Source of the DNA: Chloroflexota bacterium
Lineage (GTDB): Bacteria > Chloroflexota > Limnocylindria > QHBO01
Assembly (NCBI GenBank): GCA_040902225.1
Contig: JBBDXT010000004.1
Span: 578,965 to 642,964, forward strand
DNA length: 64,000 bases
Direction: 5' to 3'
Position 1 is the first letter of the stretch. Every line of letters begins with the position of its first letter. Made by a program: the position numbers and the translations under genes. Positions 9,234 through 52,161 of this stretch are shown piece by piece. The notes below the pieces were generated by a model that worked only from the letters and a program-made list of their open reading frames with translations, was not told where the DNA came from and made no database searches.

Positions 9234-9610
9234 ATGCTCAGCATCTCATTCGGCAACCCAGTCGCGGGCCGAATTCGTCCACCCGGCTCGCCGTTCATCG
9301 TCGGCATGTTTCGCGTGACCGCGAAGTTCGAGCAGATCGACGACGACCACCCGACACCGCACCAGGGCGTCGACATCGGCGACGGCAGGCCCGGCGGCGA
9401 ACCGCGAGCCCGGTCCGGGTCGACAACCGCAAGGGTCTGGTGCTTCTCGACCGCACCCGATTCCGGTCCTCCCCGTTCATCGAGGCGGCCAACATCATCG
9501 TCGAATTCGCGAAGGATACCGAGGTCGCTCCCGACTTCATCGTGAACGGTGGCTTGGCAAGTGGTTCGGCAAAGTGGTACGGCGCCTGGGGCAAGACGCC
9601 GAACGCACGC
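9234..9610 (+). pseudogene. frameshifted M23-peptidase-like relic
   Basis: The frame from ATG 9234 encodes PVAGRI and MFRVTAKF leading to PHQGVDIGDG, the pattern of the M23/LytM zinc site (H-x-G-x-D). That frame then turns into low-complexity Arg/Ser sequence. The reading continues sensibly one frame over from about 9400, with KGLVLLDRTRF and IIVEFAKDTEV up to AKWYGAWGKTPN. The break near 9385-9415 implies an indel, and the second catalytic H-x-H was not found. The relic extends to about 9610, just before the csp terminator. Confidence 0.4.
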
Positions 9611-27710: not shown

Positions 27711-27783
27711 GCCCCCGTAGCTCAGCGGATAGAGCGAGGCCGTCCTAAGGCCTGCGTCGGGGGTTCGATTCCCTCCGGGGGCG
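27711..27783 (+). tRNA. tRNA-Arg(CCT), CCA not encoded
   Basis: Acceptor GCCCCCG/CGGGGGC, anticodon stem AGGCC/GGCCT with loop GTCCTAA (anticodon CCT), T-arm GGGGGTTCGATTCCCTC. The base after the discriminator reads CTT, so the 3' CCA is missing, unlike the other two intact tRNAs here. Its last 20 bp (27765-27784) recur at 28446-28465, where CCA is present. Confidence 0.93.
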
Positions 27784-27841
27784 CTTCCAAGTAAGGCCGA
27801 GCCGAAGAACGGGCGGACCGGAGCGGCCCCACACGATTTGC

Positions 27842-28273: not shown

Positions 28274-28598
28274 CCTAACCGCCGCGGGGGCGTGAGTCGC
28301 GACCGTTCGACCAGGCATGCGGCTCCGACACCCGCAACACGCAGGCGCCTCGCCACGCTGCCCGCGTCCGGCGGCTCCGCCGTGGTCTTCCTACGGTGAC
28401 GGGCTGGCGTACCAATCGAGGGGGTCGGCTTTACTTAGTGAGCCCTCGATTCCCTCCGGGGGCGCCATCACCGACTGTTTCCCCCGCGGCATGAGCGACT
28501 CCACGCGTGATACGCGCCTGCAACGTTCTCCACCGCACCATCGGACAGTCTCGGGTGGGTCGCCATGGCTCGCCCGTTTGTTGGAGGAGATAGAGCCC
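28274..28598. other. intergenic stretch with tRNA-Arg 3' scar
   Basis: 325 bp without a convincing gene. It contains the tRNA-Arg 3' fragment (28446-28467) and an inverted repeat AATCGAGGG (28414-28422) / CCCTCGATT (28443-28451) whose right arm runs into that fragment. Confidence 0.7.
28446..28467 (+). pseudogene. 3' fragment of tRNA-Arg with CCA
   Basis: TCGATTCCCTCCGGGGGCGC is identical to 27765-27784 of tRNA-Arg(CCT) and is followed by CA, completing the CCA end that the intact gene lacks. There is no 5' half. This is the expected trace of integration at a tRNA 3' end. Confidence 0.7.
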
Positions 28599-44825: not shown

Positions 44826-44865
44826 TGGCGGCTAACTCGGCTGTTTCGAGCAGTGGCTTGATGTG
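44826..44865 (+). pseudogene. degenerate tRNA-Val 5' half
   Basis: GGCGGCTAACTCGGCTG and CTTGATGTGC align to the first 40 nt of tRNA-Val(GAC) with about 80 percent identity and no gap. Upstream TGAGCACGA and ATCGGT also match the tRNA-Val 5' flank. There is no 3' half. Confidence 0.55.
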
Positions 44866-44941
44866 CTGTAATACGAATCGGCTCGGCTGAAATAACAACA
44901 ATGTCTTACAGGCATGAGTTCATCCTGAGCACGATATCGGC

Positions 44942-44983
44942 GGGCGGCTAGCTCAGCTGGTTAGAGCACTTGCTTGACATGCA
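44942..44983 (+). pseudogene. exact 5' fragment of tRNA-Val(GAC)
   Basis: 42 nt identical to positions 1-42 of the intact tRNA at 49911, ending right after the anticodon stem-loop core TGCTTGACATGCA. The flank GTTCATCCTGAGCACGA upstream is also duplicated. Beyond 44983 the sequence is unrelated. Confidence 0.85.
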
Positions 44984-45242
44984 TCCGCCGCCGAGCGCTG
45001 TGCTTCGAGCGTAGGAACGGGACCGTGATCGGCATAATTATGTGTTCATCGTCGAACACGCCCGAGCCGCTGTAACGGCTCAGGAGCCTCCCAAGACTCT
45101 TCGGAAGGTCAGAAGACCTCCACGATGCCCAGACTCGGGCCGCCGCGCGGCCTGCCGGACCGCTCACCGAGTACGCGTGGACCTAGTCCCGCTCATGTGT
45201 GAACTTCGACACTGCGGTCAGGCGATCGCGCGCCGCGACCGA

Positions 45243-45920
45243 TCAGCGCCGCTGAATGCGAGGCAGCCACCGTCCCGTCCTTTCGTGGTAGGCGGCATAG
45301 GTTGGCCCGTGGCGCCCGGCCAGTTCGCGTTCCTCGTCACGCACCCACGTGGACGGCAGCACCGGTCCGTCGAGCGTCAGGTACGCGAGGAGGACCACGA
45401 GCATGACGGGGTTGAGCGTCAGGAGCAGCATGCCGATGGGCAGGAGGAAGAAGTGAAGGTAGAACGGGTGACGGATGGACGCATAGATCCCGCTCTGCAA
45501 CAGCTCACGCTCATCGGTCGCCATTCGGTACACGTTGACCGCAAGGATCCGACCCACCCAGAACAGGATCACCAACCCGGCTGCGGCGCAGGCGACGCCC
45601 AGGATCTGGAGTGGGAGCGCAAGGGGGCCGCCGTAGGTAAGCGACGGTGCGTACAGGAGACCGAGCGGAACACCGAACCCATCGACGACGAACAGGGTCG
45701 GGACCAGGACGAGCCCCGTGCGCGCACCGATTTCCCAGGCCCGCCAGGCGAATGGGCGCGCACCGCGGCAGGCCCGGGCCTCCCGCTCAGCCTCGAGCTC
45801 GCGGCGCCTCGCCTCCGTGTGCTTGGTGTTCTCCCACCGACTGACCAGGATCCAGCCGGCCAACCAGGCAGCCGAGATGACAAGCACGAGGACCGCGACG
45901 GCGTCGTTCGGCAGCATCAC
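45243..45920 (-). CDS. isoprenylcysteine methyltransferase-like membrane protein
   Basis: A 225-residue protein with about five membrane helices and the ICMT/PEMT-family SAM site GIYASIRHPFYLHFFLLPIGM followed by EERELAGRHGPTYAAYHERTGRWLP. This family methylates carboxyl, amine or thiol groups of lipophilic substrates, or is of unknown role in bacteria. It is the first protein gene inside the proposed tRNA-Val island; neighbours do not clarify its substrate. Confidence 0.83.
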   Translation of the reverse strand: MMLPNDAVAVLVLVISAAWLAGWILVSRWENTKHTEARRRELEAEREARACRGARPFAWRAWEIGARTGLVLVPTLFVVDGFGVPLGLLYAPSLTYGGPLALPLQILGVACAAAGLVILFWVGRILAVNVYRMATDERELLQSGIYASIRHPFYLHFFLLPIGMLLLTLNPVMLVVLLAYLTLDGPVLPSTWVRDEERELAGRHGPTYAAYHERTGRWLPRIQRR

Positions 45921-46073
45921 GCATCACTCCTCGTGGCATTCACCTTGCGCATGAGCGCCGGGAAATCTTCGGGAGCAGTTGTCGCCCCACGCACCAGCCC
46001 GGAGCGCGGACTGGATCCCGCGGCTGCCGTCGCGGTCTGACGCGCTCATTCCCGATCAAGTCGCTGGCAGCGG

Positions 46074-46727
46074 TCACGGCAGTTCCCCCGATCGCGCCTG
46101 CGGATGTGCCCACATCACATACGCCAGGGGCCAAAGCGCCAGGATGCCGGCCGCGGCGATGACGTAGGGCGCCGCGCTGAGAGGGGCGAAGCGCGCGGCA
46201 GCCATCACGACCAGCGCGCCAACGACGAGCCAAGTCGCCGGCCTGCTCGTGACCCCGCTGCGAGCAATCGCCATCCCGAAGCCAAGTGCCCCAACGGCGA
46301 AGCTAATCCCGCCGGTCAACAGAATGGGCACGAACCATGGAATCAGCGCGGCTTGGATCGCCGCGCCGTCGGCTCCAGTTTCGGCAGCAGCGAGTGGGGC
46401 GAATTCCATTCCCGGCAGGACGGCGAAGAGGGTGCTGCCCAGGACGATGAACGGGAGCGCCGTGGCGCTCCAGCGCTCCTCGCCCGCCTCGCGGAGGTAG
46501 CTCCGGATGGCGATGAAGGCGAGCATCGCAAGCCCGTAGCCAACGGCGACGGCGAGGTGTGCGATGCCCCAGCGCGTCGTGTCGGCCGCCGCCGCTGCGG
46601 CGATCGTCATCGGGTCCGTCGGGTGGTGCAGAAAGGGGTGGTATGCGAATCCGGCCAACAGCACCGCGGGAGCAACGGCAACGATGGCCGCTCGCCATCG
46701 CGCTCTCGTCGTATCGATCTGGCCCAT
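46074..46727 (-). CDS. integral membrane protein of unknown function
   Basis: A 217-residue protein with about six predicted membrane helices (WRAAIVAVAPAVLLAGFAY, GIAHLAVAVGYGLAMLAFIAI, TALPFIVLGSTLFAVLPGM and others). HHPTDP after the first helix contains paired histidines. No family is recognised. ATG 46727 is preferred over an upstream TTG at 46766. Same strand as its neighbours. Confidence 0.68.
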   Translation of the reverse strand: MGQIDTTRARWRAAIVAVAPAVLLAGFAYHPFLHHPTDPMTIAAAAAADTTRWGIAHLAVAVGYGLAMLAFIAIRSYLREAGEERWSATALPFIVLGSTLFAVLPGMEFAPLAAAETGADGAAIQAALIPWFVPILLTGGISFAVGALGFGMAIARSGVTSRPATWLVVGALVVMAAARFAPLSAAPYVIAAAGILALWPLAYVMWAHPQARSGELP

Positions 46728-46774
46728 GGCGTTCCTGCTTTCTCCCGCGGTCGCGGGTACCTCCAAAGCTGGGT

Positions 46775-47944
46775 TCAGCCCCTTTCGGCTCTGATTGACC
46801 GAGCGGACGGCCGGCGGACCGGTTCGTCGGCGCGAGCCGCGATGGCTGCGACGACGTGCTCGGCGTCCCTTCCCACCCCCGGCAGGAATCCGGACGACAT
46901 CGCGTACTGGAAGAACAGGCCGACGAAGTAGAGGCCGGGCTCGTCGCCGACGATCCCGCGGTAGTGCCGCGGCTCATGCCCTGCCGCATCGATCACGGGG
47001 AGGTCGATCCACGAGAACGCCGGGCGGTATCCCGTGCACCAGATGACGTTCGCCACCTCGAGGCTGCGCCCGTCTTCCAGGACCGGCAGCCCGTCGCGGA
47101 CGCCCACCACCCTGCCGACGCGTTCGACTCCGGCGGCGGCCAGGTCGGATGGCTTGACCCGGACGAGCGGCTGGCCGTGCGAGAGCAGCTTTGGGCGCAT
47201 TCTCCGGCCGAGCGGGGTGTCGACGGTTAGCAGGTGGTGCGCGATGAATCGGAACAGCAGCGGCAACACGACGCGCCGCGCGATGAGGCTGTCGATGCGG
47301 AAGGGGACGACACCGACCTCCTTCCCCGCCAGCGAGGTCGCGTGCCGGGCCGCGACCTCCACCGCAATCTCGCCGCCAGAGTTGCCGACCCCCACCACCA
47401 GCACATTGCCCTCTCGGAGCTGAGATGGATTGCGATACTCCGCCGCGTGCAGCTGGACGATGCCAGGATCCAGCTCGCCGGCAAACGGAGGAACGAACGG
47501 CACCTGGTGGCTGCCCATGGCCACGACGACGTTGTCGGCCGCGAACCGCATGGTGCCCGCTGTCAGCTCGAATCGGTCGCCGCGCCTTCGCAGGCGGTCG
47601 ACCCTGACTCGCGTCCGAACGGGGAGCTCGAACCGGGCGGCATACGCCCCGAGGTAGTCGGCCATCTCATCCTTGGTGGGGAATGAGTCGGCTCGCCCGG
47701 GGAAGGGCATCCCCGGCAAGGCGTCGTAGCGAGCCGCGCTGAATAAGCGGAGCGAGTCCCACCGTGTACGCCACGCGTCACCGATCCGCGCATGGGCATC
47801 CAGGATCACAAACGGCAGGCCGCGCCGCGCCAGGGAATGGCCGACCGCCAGGCCTGCCTGACCGCCGCCGATGACCACGGTCTGGACGTGCACCACGTCG
47901 TTCGGCTGACCCTGGGTCATCTCGTTGCGGCCGGCGATGTCCAT
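46775..47944 (-). CDS. flavin-dependent oxidoreductase, CzcO/FMO-like
   Basis: FAD- and NADPH-binding protein of 389 residues. It has two Rossmann motifs, VVIGGGQAGLAVGHSL near the N-terminus and VLVVGVGNSGGEIAVEVA at mid-length, plus WCTGYRPAFSWIDLP near the C-terminus. The pattern matches CzcO-like putative flavoprotein monooxygenases related to YUCCA and Baeyer-Villiger enzymes. The substrate is unknown. ATG 47944 is 10 nt after the HD-LuxR stop; ATG 47920 is an alternative. Confidence 0.87.
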   Translation of the reverse strand: MDIAGRNEMTQGQPNDVVHVQTVVIGGGQAGLAVGHSLARRGLPFVILDAHARIGDAWRTRWDSLRLFSAARYDALPGMPFPGRADSFPTKDEMADYLGAYAARFELPVRTRVRVDRLRRRGDRFELTAGTMRFAADNVVVAMGSHQVPFVPPFAGELDPGIVQLHAAEYRNPSQLREGNVLVVGVGNSGGEIAVEVAARHATSLAGKEVGVVPFRIDSLIARRVVLPLLFRFIAHHLLTVDTPLGRRMRPKLLSHGQPLVRVKPSDLAAAGVERVGRVVGVRDGLPVLEDGRSLEVANVIWCTGYRPAFSWIDLPVIDAAGHEPRHYRGIVGDEPGLYFVGLFFQYAMSSGFLPGVGRDAEHVVAAIAARADEPVRRPSARSIRAERG

Positions 47945-47954
47945 GCCGGGGAGG

Positions 47955-49607
47955 CTATTGGGGAGCGGAGGTCCTGAGAATCGGGAGTTCTCCCCACGTG
48001 ACGAGGCCATGCTCCATCGCAAACAGCGCTGCGGCGGCCCGACTCGAGAACCCGATCTTGGCGTACGCGTTCTGCACGTGGCGATCGGCCGTCTTGACCG
48101 AGATCCCGAGCGCCGCGGCCACCTGCTTCGTCTGGTAGCCGCGCGCCAGCAGCCCGATGACCTGGGCCTCGCGCCCGGTTAGCCCGGCCGGCCGCTCTAG
48201 CTGCGGGACGGGTTGGCCAGACGCCTCGATCACCGCAGCCACCGCCTCTGCGTCCAGCCGGCCTGCGCGCACTTCCTGGCTGAGGGCCACGGCCGCCTCC
48301 TCCAGCGACAGCGCTTGGCGGTACGGCCGCAGCTCCGTCATGGCGTGATGGACATCGGCGGCGGCGAGCAGGCGCGCGGGCCGGTTGATGCCCGCCGCCG
48401 CCGCCCCCCTGTGATAGCCGGAGCCATCGAGCCGCTCGTGATGGAAGCTGGCCACCGGAGCCAGGGCGGCAAGAAACGGGGAACGGGTGAGCACGCGTTC
48501 GGTGTGATAGGCATGCAACCTGACCGCCTCCCATTCGTCCGGCGTCAGCGGCCCGGGCTTCTGCCAGACCTTGACCGGGACGGCGACCCGCCCCACGTCG
48601 TGGACCAGGGCGCCGCGCCGAAGTGCGACAACCCCGCTTGCGTCCAGACCGAACAGGTGGCCGGCATTCGTGCACAGCCTCGCCACGCCTCCCGAATGAC
48701 CGACCAGGAACGGCGAGGCGAGGTCGGCGAAGTCGCCCACGGCGGTGAGCGCCCGATCGATGGCGTCGCCGCTGAGGGTGACCTGCGGGGTCGGCTCGCA
48801 CCCCAGCGTCTCGACCCAGGCGGACCCGTCGTCATCGGCCGCGAGCAGGCCGGCGGCCCCATCTGCAAGTGTCGCGGCAACTACTGGATCGAAGGCCCTG
48901 CCGGCTCGTCGGCGGATGACGCTGGCCGCGTACTCCGGGCCGCCCAGCATGCGTTGGAAGGCGGCATCCCGAGCGACCTGGGCGATCCGCACCGCGAGCG
49001 GAATCCCGTCGCCCCTGGCATGATTCGGGTCTCCCTTCCCATCCCATCGCTCGTCGATATACAGGAACATCGCTCCGATCTCCGCGGGAAGGCCCAGCCG
49101 GTCGGTGAGCATCTGGGCCACTTCGCATAGCGCGGCTACCTGACCCGGGAAAAGGCGAGCCAGCTTCGGAAGCCCGTAGGCGAGCTGCCGCACTCGCAGG
49201 AGTGGGGTTCCGGTCGGCGGAGCCACCGCGCGCATCAGGCCGGCGACGCGCTCAGCGGGCGCGCCGAATCGGACCGGAGCGCCGTAGGTCGTGAGCGAGT
49301 TGTGATGGCCGAAGATCTCGGCGGCGATGTCGGCATTCGCCGTGCAGCCGACGTAGAACAGCAGGCAGGTGTAATACGTCTGCGACGCAGTCTTCGCATC
49401 CACGCCAAGCCGCTCGCCCAGTCGCATCGCGATGAGTGTGCTCTGCAGCCCATGCTCGAGCGGGACGCCGATTCCGAGGTCCGTCGCCAGGGACAGCGCT
49501 GCGATCACCTCGGCAGCACGGATCTGTTCGCCGGGATTCGGTGCGTCCGGTGTCACGTTCTGATCGCCTTTAGGGTGAACGCTCAGCTTGACGGCTATGT
49601 CTATCAC
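47955..49607 (-). CDS. HD-domain phosphohydrolase with LuxR-type HTH
   Basis: A 550-residue protein. An N-terminal region (LATDLGIGVPLEHGLQSTLIAMRLGERLG, CTANADIAAEIFG) looks like a degenerate HD-type domain. A second HD-GYP-like domain has LVHDVGRVAVPVKVWQKPGPLTPDEWEAVRLHAYHTERVL and HHERLDGSGYHRG. The C-terminal ~65 residues are a LuxR HTH (LTGREAQVIGLLARGYQTKQVAAALGISVKTADRHVQNAY). The GTG at 49607 is the longest start; GTG 49556 is possible. It may couple a nucleotide signal to transcription, perhaps of the adjacent oxidoreductase. Confidence 0.83.
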   Translation of the reverse strand: MIDIAVKLSVHPKGDQNVTPDAPNPGEQIRAAEVIAALSLATDLGIGVPLEHGLQSTLIAMRLGERLGVDAKTASQTYYTCLLFYVGCTANADIAAEIFGHHNSLTTYGAPVRFGAPAERVAGLMRAVAPPTGTPLLRVRQLAYGLPKLARLFPGQVAALCEVAQMLTDRLGLPAEIGAMFLYIDERWDGKGDPNHARGDGIPLAVRIAQVARDAAFQRMLGGPEYAASVIRRRAGRAFDPVVAATLADGAAGLLAADDDGSAWVETLGCEPTPQVTLSGDAIDRALTAVGDFADLASPFLVGHSGGVARLCTNAGHLFGLDASGVVALRRGALVHDVGRVAVPVKVWQKPGPLTPDEWEAVRLHAYHTERVLTRSPFLAALAPVASFHHERLDGSGYHRGAAAAGINRPARLLAAADVHHAMTELRPYRQALSLEEAAVALSQEVRAGRLDAEAVAAVIEASGQPVPQLERPAGLTGREAQVIGLLARGYQTKQVAAALGISVKTADRHVQNAYAKIGFSSRAAAALFAMEHGLVTWGELPILRTSAPQ

Positions 49608-49910
49608 GCTCGGCCTAACTTATTCGTTCGAGAGAACGCAAGCCAGAGGAAGCCCAGGTGCGTCGGGTGGACGACCACATACCGGCTCGCGGAGCCGCCC
49701 TCGACCGGCTTGAATTGAGTGTGGGTCGTTTGCGGGTGTGCCAGCGATGACCCGGTTAGACGCCATCGCGCCCGGAAATCGTACAAGCAAGAGTTCATCG
49801 AGCGCTGTGGTCAGGAAATCGCGCTTAGTTATGAGTTCTGATACGATCTCGGTCCGCTCGATGAACGTCTTGTCGGATAGGCAAGTGTTCATCCTGAGCA
49901 CGAATTCGGT
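49608..49910. other. gap before tRNA-Val
   Basis: About 300 bp without a gene. TACGAT near 49842 and GTTCATCCTGAGCACGA just before the tRNA are shared with the upstream tRNA-Val fragment, so this includes a duplicated tRNA promoter region. Confidence 0.5.
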
Positions 49911-49987
49911 GGGCGGCTAGCTCAGCTGGTTAGAGCACTTGCTTGACATGCAAGAGGTCACTGGTTCGAGTCCAGTGTCGCCCACCA
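49911..49987 (+). tRNA. tRNA-Val(GAC)
   Basis: A 77-nt cloverleaf: acceptor GGGCGGC/GTCGCCC (one G-U pair), D-arm AGCTCAGCTGGTTAGAGC, anticodon stem CTTGC/GCAAG with loop TTGACAT (anticodon GAC), T-arm CTGGTTCGAGTCCAG, encoded CCA. It is the only complete copy among four tRNA-Val-like sequences in the window. Confidence 0.96.
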
Positions 49988-50211
49988 AAATCATCAATCT
50001 ACGCACGACATGACCGCCATAACGGGGTCGAGCATCGAGGCGGTGCCACCCGCAGGGAAATCTGTGAGCGCCTACGAAAGAGCCTGCGGCGGGCATCTGG
50101 GCCATCCCTTCGCCGACGGTCCGCGGCCGACGGGATTGCGCTACTGAATCAACTCAGCCGCGCTGAAGCTGGAGCCGACGTCCCAGGGATGGCGCCGACC
50201 GCCGCCTCGTC

Positions 50212-51777
50212 CTAGCGTGCCACCTTCTCCGTCACGTCGACCTGGGTGTAGATGTGCACCTTGTCGACGAAGGTCCAGTTGCGGTCGGGGAGGAGCGGCA
50301 GGTCCATGCCGAAGTACGCGTGGAAGATGGCGCGGAACTGGTTGACCGGCGTGATCGAGTCGTACAGTCCGGCCTCCTGGGGCGTCTTGCCGGGCAGGTA
50401 GTAGGCACTCAGGATCCCGAACTTCTCCTCCAACTCCGCCCGGGTGGCCTTCGTCCAGTCCAAGCCACCCTCGGCGATGGAGCGCGCCGGTCGGGGCCCT
50501 TCGTCGGCCTGGATAATCACGATCGGCCGCTCGGAGGCGGGCACGGCAAGGAGCGAGCCGAGCCAGTCGAGCACTTGTGAGTTGGCGAACTGCACCTGGT
50601 CCGCGTAGTTGACATTGCGGGTGCGCGCGTTCTCTTCCTCCGCCGCCACGAAACTGCCGTCGGCGTGGAAGATGTACGGATCATGGGGCAGGACGAAGTG
50701 AGCGTGCACGAACTTTGGCCCGCCGAGCGTCGAGGCGTGGTTCAGGCGGGCCCACTCGTAGCGGATCTGGTTCCATCGGTTCCGGCGCCAGTCGATTGGA
50801 GCCTCGGGGCCGAGCCCTTCGAAGGCGCGCAGGATCGTTGAACGTTCGAGCACATCGAGGAACTCGGACGCCAGCTGGTCGTACACGTAGCTGATCTCGG
50901 CCGACGGGTGGCGTGCTGTGGGTCCCCATGTGCTGCCCAGGTACAAGAACCGATACCCGGCGCTGCCGAGGTAATGCTCCACCTGGAAGGGAGCCGAGAG
51001 GTCCGAGTAGACCGGTCCCCAGTCGTGGTCGGCCGTGGCCCGCTCGCGAAGCGAGGCGAAGTCCAGGTAGTCCATGCTGCGTGACGAAACCATGCTCAGG
51101 GCGGTGACGATGTAGTTGGCGGTGGCGTGCTCAGCGACGTAGAAGCCGCGTGCCCGCAGGTCATCGAGGAACGGCGAGTTGTCGTAGTCGTAGTACTTGT
51201 CGATGACGTTGCCTGACCCGTATCGGTCCAGGATGACCCAGTACACATCCGGCAGCTCCTGCCCGGGGCTGGGTGCCGGGCTCATCGTCAGCCCAGGACC
51301 GGTCACCACCCCGCCGGGGCGCACGTTCAGGGAGAAGGCGGCGATGAGCAGCAGGTTGAAGCACACGAGCAAGGCTCCGATGACATTGAGTGGCACCACA
51401 ACGCGCCTGGCGAGGCCCTCGAAGCGCCAGATCATCGAGATGCCGATAACAGCCACCAGCGCCCACGCGCTGACCAGCACCCAATGCCCGAGCAGCATCT
51501 TCCCGATCCAGTCCCAGGCCATCCCGTAGGTGAAGAAGAGGACCACCAGGAGCGTGCTCATCAGCGCGGCTGATGGCCAGCTGCGGGTGAGTGCCCAGAA
51601 GACGAGGAGCGCGCCGAGGGTGATGCCGAGCGAAACGCCCAGCGGCAGCACGACTTCGTACGGCGCGATTGCCTCGTGCACGTTCTGCGCGTAGAGGAAG
51701 ACGACCGGGTAGGCGGCGGCCAGGATCGGGTAGACCGGTACGGCGGTCGCGCGGAGGAGTCGGCCCGATTTGGTCAT
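50212..51777 (-). CDS. membrane protein with sulfatase-like extracellular domain
   Basis: A 521-residue protein. About six N-terminal membrane helices (to ~residue 165) are followed by an alkaline-phosphatase/sulfatase-superfamily domain: DVYWVILDRYGSGNVIDKYYDYDNSPFLDDLRARGFYVAEHA, FVHAHFVLPHDPYIF and PIVIIQADEGPRP. Such proteins often transfer phospho-alcohol groups to glycans or are of unknown role. The usual catalytic Thr/Cys position cannot be assigned with certainty. ATG 51777 is chosen since the upstream frame is a translation of tRNA-like sequence. It lies between the intact tRNA-Val and its 3' copy. Confidence 0.8.
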   Translation of the reverse strand: MTKSGRLLRATAVPVYPILAAAYPVVFLYAQNVHEAIAPYEVVLPLGVSLGITLGALLVFWALTRSWPSAALMSTLLVVLFFTYGMAWDWIGKMLLGHWVLVSAWALVAVIGISMIWRFEGLARRVVVPLNVIGALLVCFNLLLIAAFSLNVRPGGVVTGPGLTMSPAPSPGQELPDVYWVILDRYGSGNVIDKYYDYDNSPFLDDLRARGFYVAEHATANYIVTALSMVSSRSMDYLDFASLRERATADHDWGPVYSDLSAPFQVEHYLGSAGYRFLYLGSTWGPTARHPSAEISYVYDQLASEFLDVLERSTILRAFEGLGPEAPIDWRRNRWNQIRYEWARLNHASTLGGPKFVHAHFVLPHDPYIFHADGSFVAAEEENARTRNVNYADQVQFANSQVLDWLGSLLAVPASERPIVIIQADEGPRPARSIAEGGLDWTKATRAELEEKFGILSAYYLPGKTPQEAGLYDSITPVNQFRAIFHAYFGMDLPLLPDRNWTFVDKVHIYTQVDVTEKVAR

Positions 51778-52161
51778 GAGCGCCGATTCTCGCACGACGG
51801 GGGGTGATGGCGGCAGCTCGCGGAGGTCCCCGGCGTGGCCACAACCCGCGTCCGGGGACGTTCCGTGACCGTCATGACGAACCCTGATGCCGAGTGCCGC
51901 CACCCTCACGGCCACTGCATAGGCCGCGATGCTTGACATGCAAGAGGTCACTGGTTCGAGTCCAGTGTCGCCCACCATGAACCCTGGCTGACCAGCCGCT
52001 CTCCTGCGCTGGCGACTGTCGCGCGTACAGCCGGGAGTACTCTCCGGGTACTGCATCAGACCGCACTCGCCGAATTTAGTGCCGTCGCTGACGCGTCATC
52101 GATCTGCCGGAAGTACTACTTCGTCATGGTCCTTCCGTCGCGGAGTCGCCATCCTCTGGGC
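51778..52161. other. gap with tRNA-Val 3' fragment
   Basis: 384 bp. Holds the tRNA-Val 3' copy (51930-51977) and AGTACT-TCTCCGG-type inverted repeats near 52035; no gene seen. Confidence 0.6.
51930..51977 (+). pseudogene. exact 3' fragment of tRNA-Val(GAC)
   Basis: 48 nt identical to 49940-49987 (anticodon loop to CCA), starting TGCTTGACATGCA. The preceding bases differ from the tRNA, so only the 3' half exists: the expected att-like junction of an insertion into tRNA-Val. Confidence 0.85.

Follow-up and report, generated by a model that had tools for sequence, protein, structure and literature searches.

Two back-to-back mobile elements, one on either side of a tRNA-Val(GAC) gene, most probably account for the tRNA fragments found in a 64,000-nucleotide stretch of DNA (the window) from a soil Chloroflexota bacterium. 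In the reading that we favor, with a probability of about 0.87, this gene is a hotspot for mobile elements at which one element of a 5'-type and one of a 3'-type have come to lie. The intact tRNA-Val is best read as a chimera, its promoter and 5' part coming from one element and its 3' part from another. A chimeric origin is suggested by attachment-site arms on both sides of the gene, by one-sided elements that stand alone in relatives, and by a promoter module that is mobile.

Results

Fragments of one tRNA meet at an anticodon core

A first-pass annotation of the window had listed four tRNA-Val(GAC) sequences, namely a relic, an exact 5' half, an intact gene and an exact 3' half, and all four were borne out by ARAGORN, by 100% matches, and by a shuffle test of the relic (Table 1). 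Within the window, the 5' half is identical to residues 1-42 of the intact tRNA (100% over 42 nt, E 2.6e-19) and the 3' half to residues 30-77 (100% over 48 nt, E 6.8e-23). The two halves overlap only in the 13-bp core TGCTTGACATGCA, which consists of the 7-nt anticodon loop plus three inner stem pairs, so that the proposal of a shared anticodon stem-loop segment, and of an att site in the anticodon loop, also holds. The relic at 44826 matches at 32 of 42 positions. In 30 shuffled versions of the window the best stretch reached 26, and the relic is therefore taken as real. The 5' copies are homologous beyond the tRNA, in the upstream direction, and CTGAGCACGA, which belongs to the promoter module described below, also lies upstream of the relic. 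A search with Rfam returned the intact tRNA and no other match. In the genome from which the window comes (G000), tRNA-Val(GAC) appears to be single-copy; genome-wide statements on G000 rest on searches and stretches.

An intact tRNA and a displaced, co-oriented fragment thus bound the insert, as in tRNA-targeting islands. The insert genes, four in the 5'-type element and one in the 3'-type element, all lie on the minus strand, and integrase searches of the insert and its surroundings were negative, in agreement with the earlier description of an integrase-less island. Chance or artefact as the origin of the tRNA halves is rejected on the strength of the E-values, the shuffles and the orthologous sites in independent metagenome-assembled genomes.

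Mirrored arms flank both kinds of fragment

At 3' halves, a conserved arm of ~65 nt lies to the left of the core (consensus acCGTGACCGcATAACTGaggCGaTtTcGCTCGGcCtcCCACGCTCgtAGCACAGCGCTCAGGCGGAAA), and at 3'-type sites accacCcaaTcCacGCTCaatctGaCcGcataactGC lies to the right of the tRNA end; the motif TGACCGYATAACTG is therefore a direct repeat on both sides. Such a layout would be expected of the arm-type sites in a lambda-like attP. The 3'-type element of the window carries arm-type motifs at both ends (Table 1), and its P' motif, TGACCGCCATAAC at 50011, has an alignment score of 10.5 that was equalled by none of about 1,730 sampled background stretches.

The same arms recur at the 5'-type sites in mirror image. 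A P arm profile trained solely on 27 3'-half sites matched in inverted orientation, just after the core, at all four 5' halves (E 2e-7 in G010, 7.1e-6 in the window, 1e-3 in G021 and 0.013 in G002). The P' arm is mirrored as well, in that sequence from upstream of 5'-type tRNAs, once reverse-complemented, corresponds at equal offset to that downstream of 3'-type tRNA ends. Nine such matches were observed, compared with 0-2 in 20 shuffles and one on the wrong strand; an example is a 17-nt exact match between the window and G005. Because both arms are mirrored, both types read outward as P - core - tRNA half - P', with the core on opposite strands.

A putative promoter module moves with the 5' half

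The segment in front of the intact tRNA (49781-49910), which to judge by its position would bear the promoter, is common across genera. Together with the adjoining 5' half it is 89% identical to the corresponding sequence of G008 and 87% to that of G010, and it is also common to G007 and G021. It is missing at the 5' half of G002 and in G003, G013, G015 and G019, where other sequence, presumably the native promoter, stands upstream. Within the window, the module stands in front of the intact tRNA and of the orphan 5' half at 44942, and part of it in front of the relic at 44826, a pattern that points to at least two successive 5'-type insertions and probably three. The relic and these repeated modules fit the suggestion of the first-pass annotation that the site has been used repeatedly.

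The same site in relatives is empty, occupied or serially occupied

The locus was followed in related genomes, all of them draft metagenome-assembled genomes (MAGs) whose genes at these loci were called with a simple codon-based caller. An uninterrupted tRNA between the same flanking genes, as had been anticipated for relatives, is present in two of them. In G007, one uninterrupted tRNA stands between a left-flank gene (a small open reading frame after an MFS gene) and the right-flank HAD and LigD genes; G015 has the same flanks, with 12 kb between the tRNA and HAD. G003 also has an uninterrupted tRNA, with synteny on the left side only, and in G021 a whole array lies between GT and HAD/LigD. 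In G002, of the same genus as G000, the 5' half lies on contig C78 with the left-hand genes of the window (28.5-43.4 kb, about 77-85% identity) and the 3' half on contig C8 with its right-hand genes (53.9-62 kb). Since the halves keep this left and right synteny, the sites are orthologous to those of the window and the DNA between them is different. None of the insert genes of the window was found at this site in relatives; a homologue of the gene at 50212, with 56% identity, lies in G002 at a good distance to the right of the site.

A family-wide search for tRNA halves in 22 genomes revealed tandem 3' halves. On contig C17 of G021, a 5' half and an intact tRNA are followed by four 3' halves spread over 40 kb, every one in the same orientation; contig C141 of G005 carries an intact tRNA and four 3' halves, and further 3' halves occur in G010, G008, G013 and G015. 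Every 3' half begins at the core. Each type of element also occurs alone, the 5'-type in G080 and G107 and the 3'-type in G013, G015 and G005. Fragments that break at this one anticodon core, with an arm on the non-tRNA side, are spread over many genera and are not confined to one family of the class.

Some further observations concern these loci. Past the 5' half and the tRNA, contigs C78 and C8 of G002 carry genes whose orthologues in G000 lie elsewhere (C5 near 88 kb; C4:815-819 kb), possibly owing to chromosome rearrangement through att sites or to an assembly error. Just downstream of the intact tRNA-Val on C17 of G021 lies a C-terminal fragment resembling a group II intron maturase. In G000 itself, 3' halves of tRNA-Val also occur at C4:167295 (98%) and C4:823646 (94%), far from any tRNA-Val, and the latter retains a P arm (E 5e-12); they may reflect secondary-site insertion or rearrangement. 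In another part of the window, the 20-nt 3' end of a tRNA-Arg(CCT) (27711-27784) is copied exactly at 28446-28465, 660 bp downstream, possibly as another small integration relic.

Integrases adjoin such sites across the class

No integrase was found in the two elements of the window or their surroundings, nor in 29 contigs of the family, most of which carry a tRNA-Val array or the locus; the one exception is a relic in G021, where the C-terminal part of an integrase directly follows a 3' half. An N-terminal relic of the same integrase family directly follows an intact tRNA-Val and its P' arm in G082, of another family of the class. Full-length cousins adjoin other tRNAs. Among the top loci class-wide that have a tRNA nearby, the integrase N-terminus lies 32-176 bp from the tRNA on the 5' side in about 21 cases and on the 3' side in five, a count subject to ascertainment, as the loci come mostly from the 30 best matches to one query. 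A tree of 29 integrases without the relics requires three changes of side; its main clade is 5'-sided and adjoins many different tRNAs. Adding the two short relics leads to rejection of one clade per side, a result of little weight because the relics do not overlap each other.

Integrase-bearing elements of the 5'-type occur at tRNA-Val itself. An orphan 5' half closes an insert of 4.9 kb with a 316 aa integrase in G080 and one of 9.3 kb with a 321 aa integrase in G107, and inserts with an integrase and a far-end orphan 5' half are also found at tRNA-Lys of G024 (11.7 kb) and tRNA-Gly of G028 (10 kb). In G000, a 12-kb island at tRNA-Leu(TAG) (C4:445514-457635) has an exact 42-nt orphan 5' half at C4:445514 and encodes a 315-aa integrase located 5' of the tRNA. 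At tRNA-Arg(TCG) of the same genome, 5' halves at C4:346204, 349181 and 354885 precede an intact gene at 358194, forming three tandem 5'-type elements of which the outermost alone has an integrase. The outermost 5' half has a different, presumably native, upstream sequence, and the other three copies share one promoter module. A similar inverted arm follows each displaced half, and the innermost element holds one 967-aa adenylate-cyclase/ATPase-like gene. The mirror case is seen at tRNA-Gly(TCC) on contig C99 of G061, with an integrase on the 3' side and 3' halves at 9302, 8632 and 4531.

Exact attP patterns had no match in IMG/VR; of free element forms, plasmids yielded none, and phages matched in the tRNA part only. 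In one viral contig (IMGVR_UViG_3300036761_004159), an intact tRNA-Val(GAC) has on its 5' side an integrase of 71% identity.

No recognized recombination or transfer genes in the two proposed elements

The bodies of the elements, their arms and their cargo are given in Table 1. Among the cargo genes, none was recognized as a recombination or transfer gene. Both elements are flanked by att sites and arms, lack recombination and conjugation genes, and have accreted with related elements, and in these respects they belong with cis-mobilizable elements (CIMEs).

Table 1. Features of the tRNA-Val(GAC) locus, in window coordinates.
Feature	Coordinates	Strand	Remarks
Decayed tRNA-Val 5'-half relic, attributed to an older 5'-type insertion	44826-44867	+	
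Orphan exact 5' half of tRNA-Val(GAC)	44942-44983	+	outer end of 5'-type element
att core TGCTTGACATGCA, copy 1	44971-44983	+	
Proposed 5'-type integrative element, integrase-less, about 4.9 kb	44984-49910		between 5' half and intact tRNA
P arm (AGCACAGCGCT motif), opposite in orientation to that of 3' halves	44991-45044	-	nhmmer E 7.1e-6
Cargo: ICMT/PEMT-like methyltransferase	45243-45917	-	PF04140 E 2.6e-9
Cargo: membrane protein	46074-46727	-	no Pfam match
Cargo: FAD/NAD(P) monooxygenase-like protein	46775-47944	-	PF13738 E 5.5e-28
Cargo: HD-domain and LuxR-type DNA-binding protein	47955-49607	-	PF13487 E 2.2e-35, PF00196 E 1.3e-12
Putative mobile promoter module of 5'-type element	49781-49910	+	right end of element
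Intact tRNA-Val(GAC)	49911-49987	+	ARAGORN; RF00005 68.5 bits
att core TGCTTGACATGCA, copy 2	49940-49952	+	
Proposed 3'-type integrative element, integrase-less, about 1.9 kb	49988-51929		bounded by intact tRNA and orphan 3' half
P' arm-type site TGACCGCCATAACG (consensus TGACCGYATAACTG)	50011-50024	+	
Cargo: single 521-aa membrane protein	50212-51777	-	no Pfam match
Decayed P arm-type site TGACCGTCATGAC	51866-51878	+	score 8.5, background fraction 0.0006
Orphan exact 3' half of tRNA-Val(GAC)	51930-51977	+	includes core copy 3 (51930-51942)

By eye, the 521-aa protein is similar to sulfatase/LTA-synthase-like proteins. When its gene is called from the first ATG (50212-52056, minus strand), the N-terminus crosses the antisense of the tRNA half and gains a spurious peptide, which is likely an annotation trap. 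Large-protein cargo recurs among the elements in the form of proteins with a class III adenylate-cyclase-like start (SGTVxFLFTDxEGSTRL), encoded at C302 of G008, C8 7782-10319 of G002, C141 of G005 and C4:355059-357959 of G000. Similar genes of this kind occur in elements at different tRNAs.

Discussion

From the sites, arms, arrays and synteny described here, together with the mobile promoter module and the integrases beside such sites in the class, we infer the recombination itself, its catalyst at this locus, mobilization in trans and the order of events. A phage-type tyrosine integrase would recombine elements into the anticodon loop of tRNA-Val(GAC) through the 13-bp core. In the attP of the circular element, arm P would be followed by the core, half of a tRNA and arm P', and any integrase gene would lie directly past P'; the near-palindromic core might stand in either direction relative to the arms. 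An element carrying a 3' half would insert on the 3' side and leave the displaced 3' half at its far end; an element carrying a promoter and a 5' half would insert on the 5' side, replace the promoter of the tRNA and leave behind the displaced 5' half. Repeated insertion beside the intact tRNA would then build arrays on both sides, of which the window would hold one element per type, together with what is left of one or more older 5'-type insertions. Both window elements would have lost their integrase or never had one, and would need one supplied in trans.

More tentatively, and at somewhat less than even odds, a single tyrosine integrase lineage may serve both sides, using the same arms and a quasi-palindromic core that is read either way. 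A core usable in either direction would account for the growth of cassette arrays without integrases to either side of the same tRNA. It is possible, with a similar degree of doubt, to see in such a one-lineage system a two-sided, tRNA-centered counterpart of the integron, in which the promoter is serially replaced on one side and the 3' half on the other.

Several points weigh against two back-to-back elements. No intact integrase was present in any tRNA-Val array contig examined from the family of the window, and for this reason the catalyst has to be judged from relics and from cousins at other tRNAs or at tRNA-Val in another family. The P arm beside the 3' half of the window at 51930 is too decayed for the hidden Markov model, and simple accretion does not predict the two 3' halves of G000 that lie distant from any tRNA-Val. 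As the relatives are draft MAGs, the order of arrays across contigs, as in G002, is uncertain. The circular form, excision and transfer of these elements are presumed.

Among other explanations, an integron-like system, in which a resident recombinase captures one-gene cassettes at the tRNA and the units are not decayed independent integrative elements, is unlikely. It would agree with the several one-gene units of 1.6-4 kb that lack an integrase and are each bounded by the same site (2 kb in the window, 1.6 and 3.6 kb in G005, and 3.3 kb for E3 at tRNA-Arg). The arrays, however, have no conserved resident integrase next to them. Recombinases shared by nearly all genomes are limited to ones that resemble Xer proteins, and the integrases found class-wide are, like the relics, members of a phage-type family located beside tRNAs.

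Slightly less probable still is the proposal of the first-pass annotation that a single element of ~7 kb split the tRNA in its anticodon loop and brought along a full replacement; tRNA-dependent lysogeny offers a parallel. The halves do rebuild one tRNA and have only the 13-bp core in common, their order around the intact gene would fit, and such a mechanism is known with a core of ~10 bp (PMC10865867). The arms flanking the intact tRNA on both sides argue instead for its rebuilding at the junction, the promoter module is mobile, and one-sided elements stand alone in G080 and G107 (5') and in G013, G015 and G005 (3'). The serial 3' halves of G021 and the serial 5' halves at tRNA-Arg of G000 would also go unexplained. 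The alternative offered at the same time, a 2-kb element plus an independent partial duplication, comes closer; the 5' copy is better seen as belonging to a second element than as a chance duplication. Duplication and decay of the tRNA by homologous recombination, without site-specific integration, is very improbable: the tRNA-Val sequence is very conserved in the class and the upstream regions of the copies are similar, but all fragments in many genera break at one core with arms on the non-tRNA side, and the mirrored arms are not reproduced by shuffles or on the wrong strand.

If two back-to-back elements are indeed present, they bear on how tRNA genes are used as integration targets. In bacteria, elements that target tRNA genes nearly always restore the 3' part; in the present case the tRNA would act as a two-sided port. 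Insertion on the 5' side would swap the promoter of an apparently single-copy tRNA, and this would be the usual mode for an integrase family across the class. Whether reversal of the core within attP suffices to switch the side of the tRNA that is captured, and how small integrase-less units keep moving, are testable questions. Most such arrays would escape island-detection programs that depend on an integrase or look for a 3' fragment.

Comparison with known systems

Islander recorded 3,760 of 3,919 islands with a 3' fragment and 159 with a 5' fragment, and four tandems of three or more, each member of which must have its own integrase (PMC4383910). The present elements resemble those islands in having an intact tRNA gene and a displaced fragment at their ends, an anticodon-loop sublocation and, in relatives, a tyrosine integrase beside the intact gene; they differ in that both fragment types flank one tRNA and the elements are integrase-less. 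The ssrA islands of Dehalococcoides form a tandem array downstream of one RNA gene with over a dozen 3'-end repeats, and 15 of 31 lack an integration module and were read as possible cis-mobilizable elements (PMC3146451). They share with the present arrays the phylum, the tandem arrangement and the many integrase-less members. They differ in their target (a tmRNA, with a T-loop site), in a Ccr-like recombinase, which is of the serine type, and in growing on the 3' side only, with no promoter replacement.

Mycobacteriophages with tRNA-dependent lysogeny, the closest precedent for a single-element model, likewise use a short core within a tRNA gene, and a functional tRNA must come with the element (PMC10865867). 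There the phage brings a complete separate tRNA and none is rebuilt, whereas here the tRNA would be rebuilt from an element-borne half. The archaeal pTN3-like integrases use a 5'-half attB with promoter replacement, a mode called seldom met in bacteria (PMC8371274); these integrases are suicidal, and their systems have no mirrored 3'-type partner at the same tRNA. Like integrons, the present arrays are made up of small units that carry genes and have copies of a single recombination site at their ends. Unlike integrons, they have no resident IntI-like integrase with attI beside the array, no tyrosine recombinase gene being found beside the tRNA of the window; their att sites would have a double-stranded, lambda-like attP geometry, and they grow on both sides of the tRNA.

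In the literature searched, with older subscription papers outside its scope, no description was found of mirror-image att sites on both sides of one tRNA. Tandem tRNA islands are already known, as are 5'-fragment islands, which are rare. Such two-sided and serial exploitation of one tRNA, promoter replacement included, is unusual; the new feature is the mirror-image sites by which integrase-less arrays would grow in both directions from the gene.

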